Assembly: GCF_024730785.1 (NCBI RefSeq)
Contig: NZ_CP102830.1
Coordinates: forward strand, 2,480,001 to 2,544,000
DNA: 64,000 nucleotides
Direction: 5' to 3'
Source of the DNA: Pseudomonas sp. LS44
GTDB taxonomy: Bacteria; Pseudomonadota; Gammaproteobacteria; Pseudomonadales; Pseudomonadaceae
Shown here piece after piece: positions 8,333 through 53,620 of this stretch (position 1 is the stretch's first letter; every line of letters begins with the position of its first letter). The position numbers and the translations under genes were made by a program. The notes under the pieces were generated by a model. The model did not search any database, was not told the origin of the DNA, and worked only from the letters and a program-made list of their open reading frames with translations.

Positions 8333-9756
8333 ATGAAGCGTTTTATCCAGGGAGAGCATCGAGGCCAAAGCGTGCTGCTCCCCGAGAGCCTGGATGACTA
8401 CGTAGCGGACACCAACCCGGTACGGGTGGTCGATGTTTTCGTCGATGAACTCGACCTCGGCCCGCTTGGTTTCGACGGTGTCGTCCCGGCGGAAACTGGC
8501 AGACCTGCTTACCATCCTGCCGATCTCCTGAAGATCTACATCTACGGCTATCTCAATCGCATCCAATCCAGTCGCCGGCTGGAGCGAGAGGCGCAGCGCA
8601 ATGTCGAATTGATGTGGCTGACCGGACGTCTGATGCCGGACTTCAAGACCATCGCCAATTTTCGCAAGGATAACGGCAAGGCAATCCGCGGCGTCTGTCG
8701 GCAGTTCGTGGTGCTGTGCCAGCAGCTTGGTCTGTTCTCTGAAGCGCTGGTGGCCATCGATGGCAGCAAGTTCAAGGCGGTCAACAATCGCGACCGCAAT
8801 TTCACCAGCGCCAAGCTTCAACGGCGAATGGCTGAGATCGAGTCAACCGCTACCTGACGGCGCTGGACACCGCAGATCGTCAGGAGCCTGCCGTGGCGCA
8901 GGTCAAAGCTGAGCGCCTTCACGACAAGATTGCGACCTTGAAAGCCAAGATGCAGGAGCTCAAGGAAATCGAGGTTCAGCTCAACGAAACACCGGATAAA
9001 CAGATCTCCCTGACCGATCCCGATGCCCGCTCAATGAAGACGCGTGGCACCGGAATGGTCGGCTACAACGTGCAGGCGGCGGTCGACGCGAAGCACCACC
9101 TGATCGTGACGCATGAGGTCACGAACGACGGAGTCGATCGAGACCAACTAAGTTCAATGGCCAAGCAAGCCCGAGAAGCCATGGGCGTCGAGGAACTCTC
9201 GGCGGTCGCAGACAGGGGGTATTTCAAAGGCGAAGAAATCCTGGCTTGCCATGAAGCTGGAATCACTGTTTTCGTACCCAAGACGCTGACCTCGGGAGCG
9301 ACAGCGGCTGGCCGCTTTGGCAAAGGTGATTTCATCTACGACGCAGCAAAGAACGAGTACCAATGCCCTGCTGGGCAACGCCTGATCTGGCGTTTCTCAA
9401 GCATCGAGAAAGGCCTGAAGCTGCACCGTTACTGGAGTTCGCATTGCCAAGGTTGCGCGTTGAAAGAGCACTGTACGCCTAGCCCCGAGCGACGAGTGAG
9501 CCGCTGGGAGCATGAGTCCGTACTCGAGGCGATGCAGAATCGTCTGGATCAAGCTCCTGAGATGATGCGAATCCGCCGTCAGACGGTCGAGCACCCGTTC
9601 GGCACGCTGAAGTCCTGGATGGGCGCCACCCATTTCCTCACCAGAACGCTCGACCGGGTGAGTACCGAGATGAGCCTGCATGTGCTCGCCTACAATCTCA
9701 AACGCATACTGCGCTTGATGGGTAGCGATGCCTTGATGGCGGCGATGAAGGCCTGA
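8333..9756 (+). pseudogene. IS1182-family transposase, frameshifted
   Basis: The first part (8333-8857) starts MKRFIQGEHRGQS after a GGAGG site and carries the DUF772-like N-terminal region and the first catalytic Asp in VAIDGSKFKA. It runs into a premature TGA at 8855-8857. The second part continues in another frame to 9756 with the second Asp in VADRGYFKGEE and the catalytic Glu in VEHPFGTLKSW. Reading across 8841-8846, loss of one base (or four) after the codons for EIE restores S-N-R-Y-L-T-A-L and joins the two halves. The full protein would be about 475 residues, normal for the family. Unless this is a programmed shift, the transposase is inactive. Confidence 0.85.
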
Positions 9757-30841: not shown

Positions 30842-30986
30842 TAGGTTCTGTACGAAAAGTCGCCGAGCGAAGGTCAGGCAAGGCAAAAAGTGGCGAGGAC
30901 GCGGAGTTTACGAGTTGTAAATGAGCAGTCCGAACCACTTTTTAACGCAGCATCACCGAGCGCAGGCAGTTTTCGTACAGAACCTA
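30842..30986. repeat. Covarying double-stem intergenic element, copy A
   Basis: Outer arms are a perfect 17-bp inverted repeat (30842-30858 and 30970-30986, TAGGTTCTGTACGAAAA). Inner arms AAAAAGTGG (30885-30893) and CCACTTTTT (30935-30943) pair too. The centre, AGTTTACG...TGTAAATGAGCA (30905-30927), is shared with copies B (49780-49921) and C (52524-52659), although the arm sequences differ between copies. AACCTA occurs as a direct repeat at both ends. Confidence 0.75.
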
Positions 30987-49766: not shown

Positions 49767-49779
49767 GAGGATTCTCCTG

Positions 49780-49921
49780 AGAGCCTGTTTACGATCTAGC
49801 GAGCTAGAGCCATGCAAGATAAAAACAGGCGAAGAAGCGGAGTTTACGGGCTGTAAATGAGCATTCTGAGCCTGTTCTTAACGCAGCAGGGCCGACGCGC
49901 AGCAGATCGTAAACAGGTTCT
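49780..49921. repeat. Covarying double-stem intergenic element, copy B
   Basis: Outer arms CCTGTTTACGATCT (49784-49797) and its exact complement (49904-49917), extended by three further pairs including a G-T. Inner arms AAAAACAGGC (49821-49830) and GCCTGTTCTT (49870-49879). The core AGTTTACG...TGTAAATGAGCATT is as in copies A and C. CTGAG is repeated directly at 49777-49781 and 49920-49924. Confidence 0.75.
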
Positions 49922-50073
49922 GAGGCTCGCCGGCCAGTCTATCGAGACCGCCACCGCATCGCTCACGACGTTTCGGCCAAGCTCACCGCCCATGTCGCCA
50001 TCTTGCTGAATGCAGTTGGCTACGCTCTTCAGTAAGCCGCAAGGCTTGCCGTCATATCCACGGAGGAATGCGC

Positions 50074-52521
50074 ATGCTGCTCGTGTGGTTACTGGTGCTA
50101 GTTCTCGGCGTGGCCTTTTTGGCCCATCGCCGCACCGCCCCCTTGCCAGCCTTTGGGGTGGTCGCGGTCTTTCTGATCGCGATGATCGTGTTTGGTCACG
50201 CGCCAGGTTGGCTGATGCTCATCCTCGGTCTGCTGTGGCTCGCCGTGGCCCTGCCGCTGGCGCTTCCCCAGCTGCGTCGCCAACTGATCAGTGCCCCGCT
50301 GTTCCGCTGGTTTCAGAACGTCCTGCCGCCGATGTCGGACACCGAACGGGAAGCCATCGAGGCCGGTACGGTGTGGTGGGATGGCGAACTGTTCAGCGGC
50401 CGGCCGGACTGGAATACCCTGCTGAACTATCCCAAGGCGCAGCTCAGCGAGGAGGAAAAGGCCTTTATCGATGGCCCGACTGAAGAGCTCTGCGCAATGG
50501 TCAGCGACTGGGAGATCGGCCAACAGATGGACCTGCCCGAGCAGGCCTGGCAGTTCATCAAGGACAACGGTTTCTTCGCCCTGATCATTCCCAAGGAATA
50601 CGGCGGCAAGGGCTTCTCCGCCTACGCCCACTCGCAGGTGGCGATGAAACTGGCGACCCGCAGCGGCGATCTCGCCTCCACGGTGATGGTGCCCAACTCG
50701 CTCGGCCCGGCCGAACTGTTGCTGCACTACGGCACGGATGAGCAGCGCAAGCATTACCTGCCGCGCCTGGCCCGCGGCGAAGACATCCCCTGCTTCGCCC
50801 TGACCGGCCCGCTCGCCGGCTCCGACGCTGGAGCTATGCCGGACACCGGCATCATCTGCAAGGGCGACTGGCAAGGCGATCAAGTGCTCGGCCTGCGCCT
50901 CAACTGGGAGAAGCGCTATATCACCCTCGGCCCGGTCGCCACCCTGCTGGGCCTGGCGTTCAAGGCCTACGACCCGGAACATCTGTTGGGCGACGAGGAA
51001 GATCTGGGCATCAGTCTCGCGCTGATTCCTACCGATACCCCCGGCGTGGATATCGGCCGGCGCCACCTGCCGCTCGGGGCGGCCTTCATGAACGGGCCAA
51101 ACTGGGGGAAAGACGTGTTTGTGCCGCTCGAATACTTGATAGGCGGCCCGGAATACCTCGGCAAGGGCTGGATGATGCTGATGAACTGCCTGTCGGTGGG
51201 CCGCTCGATTTCTCTGCCCGCTGTGGGCACCGGCGCGGCCAAGTACACCAGCTTGGTCACCGGCCAATACACGCAGATCCGCGAGCAATTCAATGTGCCG
51301 CTGGCCGCGTTCGAGGGCATCCAGGAAGCCCTGGCGCGGATCGGTGGCAATGCCTGGCTGATGGACAGCGCGCGCATCCTCACCGCCAGCGCGGTGGATC
51401 TGGGCGAGAAACCCTCGGTGCTGTCGGCGATCCTCAAATACCACCTGACTGAACGGGGCCGCGAATGCATCAGCCACGCCATGGACGTGCATGGCGGCAA
51501 GGGCATCATCCTGGGCCCCAACAATTATCTGGGCCGTTCATGGCAGGGTGCACCGATTTTCATCACGGTCGAGGGCGCCAACATTCTTTCGCGCAACCTG
51601 ATGATCTTCGGTCAGGGCGCAATCCGCTGCCATCCCTACGTACTCCAGGAAATGGCCCTGGCCAGCCGCGAGGATCGCAATCAGGCCCTGGTCGAATTCG
51701 ACGATCTGCTCATGCGCCATGTTGGCTTCGCCGTCGGCAATGCCGCCAGCAGCCTGATCCTCAGCCTATCGCTGGGCCTGTTCGGAAACGTGCCTGGGGA
51801 CAATTTGAGCCGACCGTACTTCCGCGCGCTGAATCGCCTGGCAGCGGCCTTCGCCCTGCTCGCCGACTTCAGCATGATGCTGCTCGGCGGCGAGCTGAAG
51901 CGCCGGGAACGTCTGTCCGCGCGTTTAGGCGACGTGCTCAGCCATCTTTACCTGGCATCGGCCGCGCTCAAGCGCTATCACGACCTCGATTATCCCGAGC
52001 ATCTGCAACCCTCGGTGCAGTGGGCACTGGAGGAAAGCCTCGGTAAGGCCGAGCAGGCGCTGAACGATCTGCTACACAACTTCCCCAATCGCCTGTTCGG
52101 CTGCCTGCTGCGCATCGTCGTGTTCCCGCTCGGGCGCCGCCACAAAGGCCCGTCAGATCGACTGGACGCCGATGTCGCCAAGATTCTCGGCCGTGCCAAA
52201 GGCGACCCGGCCCTCGAGGCGCTACTAGAAGGCTGCTACCGACCCACCGATCCCGATGACCCGGTCGGCGCGCTACAACACGCCGCGACCTTGTTGGCGG
52301 ACAGCCAGACAGAGCAACAGAAACTGCACAGCGCATTGAAGTCCGGGCAAATCCACCCGGCTCCCGGCCAGTCGCTGCTGGATGCCGCGCTGGCTGGCGG
52401 CGTCTTGCAAGCCGAGGAGGTACAAAAGCTACGCGCCGCGGAAAACGCGCGCCGCAAAGTGATCGATGTCGATGATTTCGCCAAGGAAGAGCTGACCGTG
52501 AATCTGGGTAAAGTTCGCTAG
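50074..52521 (+). CDS. fadE: Acyl-CoA dehydrogenase FadE
   Basis: An 815-residue FadE-type dehydrogenase that performs the first oxidation of fatty acid beta-oxidation. Two N-terminal membrane segments (about 1-70, MLLVWLLVLVLGVAFLAHR) anchor it. The flavin domain has WQFIKDNGFFALIIPKEYGG, CFALTGPLAGSDAGAMPDTG and MDVHGGKGIILGPNNYLG. Length matches E. coli FadE (about 814). GGAGG lies seven bases before the ATG at 50074; the ATG at 50068 is too close to it. The stop codon lies inside the direct repeat flanking element copy C. Confidence 0.94.
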   Translation: MLLVWLLVLVLGVAFLAHRRTAPLPAFGVVAVFLIAMIVFGHAPGWLMLILGLLWLAVALPLALPQLRRQLISAPLFRWFQNVLPPMSDTEREAIEAGTVWWDGELFSGRPDWNTLLNYPKAQLSEEEKAFIDGPTEELCAMVSDWEIGQQMDLPEQAWQFIKDNGFFALIIPKEYGGKGFSAYAHSQVAMKLATRSGDLASTVMVPNSLGPAELLLHYGTDEQRKHYLPRLARGEDIPCFALTGPLAGSDAGAMPDTGIICKGDWQGDQVLGLRLNWEKRYITLGPVATLLGLAFKAYDPEHLLGDEEDLGISLALIPTDTPGVDIGRRHLPLGAAFMNGPNWGKDVFVPLEYLIGGPEYLGKGWMMLMNCLSVGRSISLPAVGTGAAKYTSLVTGQYTQIREQFNVPLAAFEGIQEALARIGGNAWLMDSARILTASAVDLGEKPSVLSAILKYHLTERGRECISHAMDVHGGKGIILGPNNYLGRSWQGAPIFITVEGANILSRNLMIFGQGAIRCHPYVLQEMALASREDRNQALVEFDDLLMRHVGFAVGNAASSLILSLSLGLFGNVPGDNLSRPYFRALNRLAAAFALLADFSMMLLGGELKRRERLSARLGDVLSHLYLASAALKRYHDLDYPEHLQPSVQWALEESLGKAEQALNDLLHNFPNRLFGCLLRIVVFPLGRRHKGPSDRLDADVAKILGRAKGDPALEALLEGCYRPTDPDDPVGALQHAATLLADSQTEQQKLHSALKSGQIHPAPGQSLLDAALAGGVLQAEEVQKLRAAENARRKVIDVDDFAKEELTVNLGKVR

Positions 52522-52523
52522 AC

Positions 52524-52659
52524 GGCCGTTGAAAAATGTAGCCGAGGCAGCCGAGACAAGGCAAAAACGGCCGAAAAAGCGCAGTTTACGCGCTGTAAAT
52601 GAGCATTTTGAGGCCGTTTTTAACGCCGTACCGGCAACGCAGGTAGTTTTTCAACGGCC
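52524..52659. repeat. Covarying double-stem intergenic element, copy C
   Basis: Outer arms GGCCGTTGAAAAA (52524-52536) and TTTTTCAACGGCC (52647-52659) are perfect complements. Inner arms AAAAACGGCC and GGCCGTTTTT also pair. The core AGTTTACG...TGTAAATGAGCATTTTGAG matches copies A and B. The 11-mer GCTAGACGGCC is repeated directly at 52517-52527 and 52661-52671. Confidence 0.78.
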
Positions 52660-52738
52660 TGCTAGACGGCCTGCGGACGACAGCGGCTGTGGGGGGATTT
52701 ATACTCCCGCGCCCGTTTTGCTTTTCAGGATCATCATC

Positions 52739-53242: not shown

Positions 53243-53318
<76 letters not shown>

Positions 53319-53340
53319 ATACAACTTGGTGCAACCAAAA

Positions 53341-53416
53341 TGGCGTCCCCTAGGGGACTCGAACCCCTGTTACCGCCGTGAAAGGGCGGTGTCCTAGGCC
53401 ACTAGACGAAGGGGAC
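53341..53416 (-). tRNA. tRNA-Glu (TTC), second copy in transcript order
   Basis: 76 nt with encoded CCA. It starts GTCCCCTTCGTCTAG, with anticodon loop CCTTTCACG. It is identical to 53545-53620. Confidence 0.97.
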
Positions 53417-53447
53417 AAACAACGCACTTAAGCATCGCTTATTAAAC

Positions 53448-53523
<76 letters not shown>

Positions 53524-53544
53524 AATACAACTTGGCAACCGAAA

Positions 53545-53620
53545 TGGCGTCCCCTAGGGGACTCGAACCCCTGTTACCGCCGTGAAAGGGCGGTGTCCTA
53601 GGCCACTAGACGAAGGGGAC
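53545..53620 (-). tRNA. tRNA-Glu (TTC), first copy in transcript order
   Basis: 76 nt, the first tRNA of the cluster after the promoter; identical to 53341-53416. Confidence 0.97.

Follow-up and report, generated by a model that had tools for sequence, protein, structure and literature searches.

In the usual account, MITEs derive from a single IS by deletion and remain bound to its ends (PMC3189936, in the available portion of its text). A close described case is MITEPsy1 of Pseudomonas syringae, a 100-nt element with one type of TIR; in the same portion of that article, its transposition is shown by the authors, its TIR resembles that of ISPsy2, an IS5-family IS, and homologs are mentioned in P. 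stutzeri and others (PMC3189936). ERIC, RUP, BOX, SPRITE and Correia are likewise small hairpin elements, and TA is found at the ends of many of them; the TIR of RUP resembles that of IS630-Spn1, BOX is modular, and the pneumococcal repeats are over-represented between convergent genes (available sections of PMC2229807 and PMC3049150). The P. fluorescens repeats R0-R200 are intergenic, several have inverted repeats and their authors call them MITE-like (PMC2718517, available sections); they are likened to the present elements by description alone. Covarying mobile repeats are also a published kind: 250 “mobile/repeat sequence candidates” are given by Narunsky et al. 2024 (PMC11109978, as far as its available text extends), and for one of them, MRSC-65-2, the authors leave open whether RNA or DNA is involved.

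Three elements that compare with these systems are present in the window, i.e. the whole 64,000-nt stretch of Pseudomonas sp. LS44 DNA that was analyzed. Element A (positions 30844–30984, + strand, 141 bp) has TIRs of type A (GGTTCTGTACGAAAA) and is flanked by target-site copies TA at positions 30842–30843 and 30985–30986, the same TA that stands beside ISPst8-family ISs; a covariance model matches it at positions 30871–30959 (97.6 bits). Element B (49781–49920, + strand, 140 bp) has TIRs of type B (GARCCTGTTTACGATCT), with the target TGA at 49778–49780 and 49921–49923 and a model match at 49807–49895 (92.4 bits). Element C (52522–52661, + strand, 140 bp) has TIRs of type C (CAGGCCGTTGAAAAA), of which the left one is degenerate, with the target CTAG at 52518–52521 and 52662–52665 and a model match at 52549–52637 (99 bits). 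The left CTAG of element C contains the stop codon of an upstream + strand gene, as predicted by a simple gene finder. About 0.6 kb past element C there are four consecutive tRNA genes on the minus strand (53246–53620).

A core pattern matches the core hairpin of each element, which in element A reads AGTTTACGAGTTGTAAATGAGCA (30905–30927, + strand) in element B occupies positions 49841–49863 (+ strand) and in element C positions 52583–52605 (+ strand). This pattern has three matches in the window, where 0.02 would be expected from shuffles, and the covariance model yields only elements A, B and C together with one weak match (E-value = 0.82). RNA fold z-scores on the + strand are −8.0 for A, −7.3 for B and −5.4 for C, with those of the minus strand close behind (−7.9, −7.4 and −4.3). 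The preliminary description had reported three copies here, with outer and inner arms that are self-complementary within each copy; the copies are present at those sites, with the exact limits given above, and both sets of arms do pair within each of the three.

Every copy forms a single long, imperfect hairpin some 140 bp in length, at times enlarged by extra hairpin modules. The canonical size is 139–141 bp (53 of 80 elements with recognized ends) and the full range is 127–254 bp. Moving inward from the outer arms, an element has a subterminal part with some pairing, then the middle stem, the AAGGC/AACGC internal loop and the inner stem; beyond the inner stem come the tandem G.A/A.G, four base pairs and a G-C clamp, and lastly the tip hairpin TTTAC-loop-GTAAA, with TGAGCA after it. 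In element A the middle stem is formed by a left arm at 30873–30879 (+ strand) and a right arm at 30950–30956 (pairs −32 to −26 with 45 to 51), and the inner stem by a left arm at 30885–30894 (+ strand) and a right arm at 30934–30943 (pairs −20 to −11 with 29 to 38). The tandem mismatch adjoining the inner stem (GA at 30895–30896, + strand, with its right side at 30932–30933 in element A) is kept as G.A in 123 and as A.G in 120 of 131 canonical copies, and another G.A, at −28/47, is kept in 89 of 131; these position-wise counts cover the 131 canonical elements among 211 extracted. The two stems described earlier are real, but that layout lacked an extra covarying stem and the conserved internal loops between the outer and inner arms. 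In distant genomes the tip stem is swapped for other complementary letters, e.g. CGTAC/GTACG, CATAC/GTATG or TTTAT/ATAAA, and GCGSAG and TGAGCA are mostly retained despite the changed tip stem.

Like MITEPsy1, the elements are small and TIR-bounded and include an IS5-type TIR, and the 4-nt target of MITEPsy1, CTAG or YTAA, resembles that of type C; in contrast to MITEPsy1 as given in the available text (100 nt, one TIR type), they measure 127–254 bp and carry other TIRs (PMC3189936). A MITEPsy1 pattern of fixed spacing gave 0 matches in 118 genomes. Two stretches bear the TIR of MITEPsy1 without a match to the core, one in P. syringae (L303, a unit of ~96 bp reached through the left TIR) and one in Citrobacter (L304, 99 bp, near-perfect TIRs); either of them may be something other than MITEPsy1. 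The 18-bp MITEPsy1 TIR is found in 764 plasmid records, 537 of them from Klebsiella. None of ERIC, RUP, BOX, SPRITE and Correia is described, in the available sections of PMC2229807 and PMC3049150, as a family with ends of different transposase families. The traits shared with MRSC-65-2 are multiple copies, inconsistent gene orientation, a single long covarying stem and a suspected selfish nature, but MRSC-65-2 has a conserved UYCCGG repeat, whereas TYCCGG is found in 3 of 240 elements of the present family and never twice in one (PMC11109978, available text). The comparison sets the family apart from MRSC-65-2 only, and it may already be listed among the other MRSC motifs of that article. Rfam 15 gave no convincing match for the whole window, for element A or for fifteen relatives (none on the elements); the best score of element A is with sX9, 18.8 bits against a gathering score of 44. 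Thus a catalogued RNA family with the same structure, which the preliminary description had named as a finding that would count against it, did not emerge from Rfam 15. In one relative (L245, positions 2619–2724) a sub-threshold match to RF02837 (anti-hemB; 42.1 against 49.5 bits) lies away from the element. Literature texts with core-like letters are, among the matches listed, unrelated by title.

The preliminary description was based on three copies, and searching this and other genomes yields many more with complementary variable stems. The genome of Pseudomonas sp. LS44 (4.46 Mb) has 89 core copies at up to two mismatches, with 0 for the reversed pattern, and 87 at up to one mismatch. The covariance model gives 100 matches in this genome at E-value = 0.1 or less, a few of them short or partial (150 of 969 candidates scored). 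At up to one mismatch and with this genome included, the core is present in 59 of 119 genomes of the genus, in counts of 0 to 87 per genome, and in 39 of 369 genomes (32 of 272 genera) of the class. On the level of the phylum, the model matches 87 of 299 sampled genomes at E-value = 1e-4 or less, many of them outside the class, in a sample that is uneven across families and with 14 candidates scored per genome. The family is spread through Pseudomonadota. Hosts among the matches listed are Pseudomonas, Stutzerimonas, Azotobacter, Halomonas, Salinicola and Chromohalobacter, as well as MAGs labelled Nitrosomonas, Methylococcaceae and Thiotrichaceae; Fukatsuia is a further named host. One element of normal size with B ends in the LS44 genome (L214, G000:4309021-4309160) has its tip altered to GAGTTTACAAGTTGTAAACGACA and is found by the model and missed by the core pattern.

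Recognized TIR pairs are present in 80 of the 89 copies, and these 80 measured elements (127–254 bp) have no transposase gene of their own. B ends are found in 41 copies, C ends in 37 and A ends in 2, with the other 9 outside these three patterns; the outer arms, which had been taken to be specific to each copy, are therefore subfamily-wide TIRs. In type B, the left and right 3-bp flanks agree in 29 of 41 copies, against 10.7 expected from shuffling, and the target TNA is seen on the left in 37 of 41 and on the right in 39 of 41. The flanks of type C (NTAR) are identical over 4 bp in 13 of 37, against 6.2 expected, and the target of type A is TA. With ends that are constant within subfamilies and targets that are duplicated, these are MITE-like elements, and the contrast drawn earlier with ordinary MITEs of constant ends is not supported in that form. 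Several sites in relatives are without the element, with flanks too diverged for exact duplications to be read.

At least 14 of 16 outer positions match within the same element in 186 of 240 elements, and with a random partner in 28 of 200. Clustering of 212 arms from the 240 elements, at 75–80% identity over overlaps of at least 10 letters, gives 19 to 29 single-linkage clusters, and 172 to 191 of the 212 arms are chained into one group. (A count of 122 distinct outer 10-mers was discarded as inflated by varying window starts.) Intermediates thus link most of the arms, and the ends may equally well have changed gradually as by discrete exchange. Cases of a kept interior with changed ends are pairs such as L089 with L139 or L104, same-TIR pairs in shifted windows having been excluded; with 85% interior identity, L089 and L139 have different terminal ~10 bp at both ends. 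The TIR variants TTTACGATC and TTTCGGATC (L010, L011) differ identically in the left and right arms. Genomes in and outside the class (L248, L324, L326) have the near-identical TIR CTAGGGCGTGTTGACA, or a form one letter shorter.

Two of the three end types of the window, A and B, match by sequence the TIRs of IS5-family ISs. The sequence GGTTCTGTACGAAAAGT opens element A, whose other end keeps its first 15 letters, and it stands at both ends of ISPst8-family IS5 elements on Pseudomonas plasmids (L299, L302) and, with one mismatch, in an ISPs1-family IS (L300). The TIR of ISPst8 equals type A over 15–17 bp, and the TA flank is common to both ISs and type A. ISPst8 and ISPs1 differ from the elements in being autonomous, with a transposase, and the 90 bases inside each of their ends are, by eye, dissimilar to the element interior. 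Matches in P. putida and DC3000 also bear the A TIR, at one end only in DC3000. The B end is identical at 18 of 18 positions with one end of an IS5-family IS annotated as ISStma16 on a Nitrosomonas stercoris plasmid; the other end has one mismatch, and TAA is present on both sides. The end of one relative (L252) is found, 18 of 18 positions at one end and with one mismatch at the other, in a Paraburkholderia IS701-family IS (NCBIfam NF049921, 412 bits). For each of the three traced autonomous ISs, the match extends to both ends and the bases alongside agree with the target; the 18-mer matches alone have an E-value of ~6, and they gain weight solely because an annotated IS is matched at its two ends. 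The interior has thus persisted under ends that belong to different transposase families.

Searches closer to the elements were negative. No IS with an A, B or C TIR was found in 20 regions of the LS44 genome around unpaired TIR matches, a set outside which there are a few weaker matches; by appearance, these regions are pieces of elements, isolated ends or derivatives shortened by deletion. Near the three PF01609 transposases of this genome, TIRs of types A, B and C gave no match. The window has a PF01609 (DDE) transposase domain in a 306-aa open reading frame (9022–9699), without an A, B or C TIR match nearby. Among 11 matches in 118 congeneric genomes, no IS with a C TIR was seen, using a pattern that misses ISs resembling the elements further in; C TIRs in plasmids belonged to element copies or were judged to be chance matches. 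Seven other element-bearing genomes have 25 PF01609 loci, and the element TIRs of four of these genomes match none of them; two of the seven (G205, G365) contain elements and no PF01609 match. A search of plasmids with the L248 TIR gave nothing useful. The match of the L240 TIR to ISL3 genes in Rhodococcus involves inner bases only and was judged to be chance, and a Legionella match (H40) has no transposase gene nearby.

The two sides of the hairpin change together. In 65 divergent representatives (cluster representatives of 163, out of 240 elements from many genomes), 92.6% of the pair cells are paired, compared with 74.5% after shuffling, which ignores common descent; 0 of 500 shuffles were as high. 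Double changes are found in 20 of the 27 pairs, with 342 double-changed cells against 104 in shuffles. With the partner slid by 1–3 columns, at most 43.6% are paired, a control that flatters the structure, as this was partly derived from the same sequences. When partners are shuffled between distinct canonical elements (141 of the 240), pairing among the 13 variable pairs falls to 8.69 (shuffle maximum 9.01), compared with 12.31 for the true partners. The compensatory change claimed for the stems is therefore strong and phylum-wide. With descent ignored throughout, G.U exceeds A.C 97 to 35 among interior mismatches of the 141 distinct canonical elements, 75 to 30 in the 65 clustered representatives, 147 to 71 for the outer arms when the window choice was unbiased (a choice favoring G.U gave 167 to 71 and was set aside), 46 to 17 in the LS44 TIRs placed by fixed pattern, and 12 to 6 within subfamilies, where the numbers are too few to decide. 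A constraint on double-stranded DNA only would make G.T and A.C about equal, so the excess of G.U points to one strand folding singly. The strand reading TGTAAATGAGCA seems to fold as a single strand, either RNA or ssDNA; the predicted energies are favorable for both strands. The preliminary description had posed selection for folding and a rebuilding of the ends by transposition as alternatives; selection is favored for the interior, and the ends are ordinary TIRs that would have been exchanged or changed stepwise.

The probable explanation is a MITE-like family that is mobilized in trans. Its interior would be conserved as a single-strand fold, and its TIRs would have changed from one transposase family to another. 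The transposases of the matching ISs would move the elements in trans by recognition of the TIRs, and the interior would be retained because the strand with TGTAAATGAGCA folds as RNA or ssDNA; the fold may serve the element or limit its cost. The TIRs would have shifted between transposase families with the interior kept, either by exchange or stepwise through intermediates. We consider the likeliest use of the fold to be that of a transcript hairpin, tolerated or useful, located directly after stop codons, RNA being more likely than ssDNA. If true, a constrained interior combined with ends of different transposase families would represent a hyperparasite of ISs, whose borrowed ends may let it ride on unrelated transposases, and the fold would be a conserved nucleic-acid structure absent from Rfam. 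The proposal is directly testable, with three TIR types in one genome and matching ISs known for two. A bolder reading, possible but doubtful, is a transposase-independent selfish lineage in which the inherited unit is the folded RNA or ssDNA domain (a GCGSAG-stem-UGAGCA tip, the tandem G.A/A.G and the AAGGC/AACGC loop). This domain would exchange its terminal repeats, perhaps through the copying of captured IS ends on a hairpin template, and thereby hijack unrelated transposases (IS5, IS701, probably others) across Pseudomonadota, with the fold taking part in capture or transposition.

As for the arms, the closest competing explanation is that replication copies one onto the other (quasipalindrome correction by template switching); the compensatory changes would then be mutational and would not reflect selection on a fold. 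We regard it as rather doubtful. Such copying should erase mismatches, but the tandem G.A and A.G (123 and 120 of 131) and the G.A at −28/47 (89 of 131) persist; it is also strand-symmetric and would not yield G.U over A.C, and G.U intermediates are frequent. It is disfavored for the interior for these reasons, but may well be the way new ends get installed: it would explain how an end captured on one side shows up on the other, and it is consistent with the simultaneous change of the terminal ~10 bp at the two ends between L089 and L139 (interiors 85% alike), with the identical change in both arms of the TIR variants (L010, L011) and with the existence of short derivatives resembling internal deletions. 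A plain MITE, with no functional interior and with stems alike by descent from one long palindrome, is very unlikely. The TIRs, target duplications, small size and absence of a gene fit any MITE, but the 342 double-changed cells against 104 already disfavor this explanation, pairing with shuffled partners is far worse than observed (8.69, maximum 9.01, against 12.31 of 13 variable pairs), and parts of the core and loops are retained in distant genomes while most stems differ. Long imperfect hairpins with conserved loops would also suit mobility by a hairpin-recognizing Y1 enzyme. In IS200/605, REPIN and RAYT, hairpin ends are recognized by a Y1 transposase. Y1 enzymes are not known to duplicate their targets, and membership in IS200/605, REPIN or RAYT is disfavored by the target duplications, which together with the IS5- or IS701-type TIRs fit DDE transposases; a Y1 mechanism (IS200/605 or RAYT type) is thus extremely unlikely.

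The genomic context, analyzed for 80 of the 89 copies with a simple codon-usage gene finder, bears on the last alternative, a domesticated regulatory RNA that the host keeps as a 3′-end device (terminator, mRNA stabilizer or RNase site). In 46 of the 80, the element is within 15 nt of a predicted stop codon; 8 predicted starts are equally close (15 nt or less) to an element end. Where the neighboring genes run in the same direction, type C is sense-oriented in 21 cases and antisense in 4 (p = 0.0009, with the split by type made post hoc). The stop codon proximity, the orientation of type C, the inner stem with its A and U tracts and the G.U excess could all be read as signs of a regulatory RNA; however, insertion at TNA/YTAR alone brings elements to stop codons, and the preference follows from these targets plus selection, so that it does not demonstrate a function. 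The orientation of B elements is balanced (12 vs 13), the copy number ranges from 0 to 87 across the 119 genomes of the genus, several sites are empty in relatives, and terminator-like matches at the elements are not enriched (5 vs 3.2). Host domestication is therefore considered unlikely. A replication-strand bias was not significant (p = 0.29, with the contig start assumed to be the origin).

Returning to the MITE-like family with a folded interior, the larger elements (154–156, 168, 185–198, 213 and 253–254 bp) display extra hairpin modules at recurrent joints. Such modules are seen at the joints of L013, L015, L034, L093, L094 and others. Short derivatives (L208, L211, L213, L220, L287) consist of little beyond both TIRs, by apparent internal deletion. 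From one species to another, similar modules are found at other joints, as though the modules were mobile in their own right.
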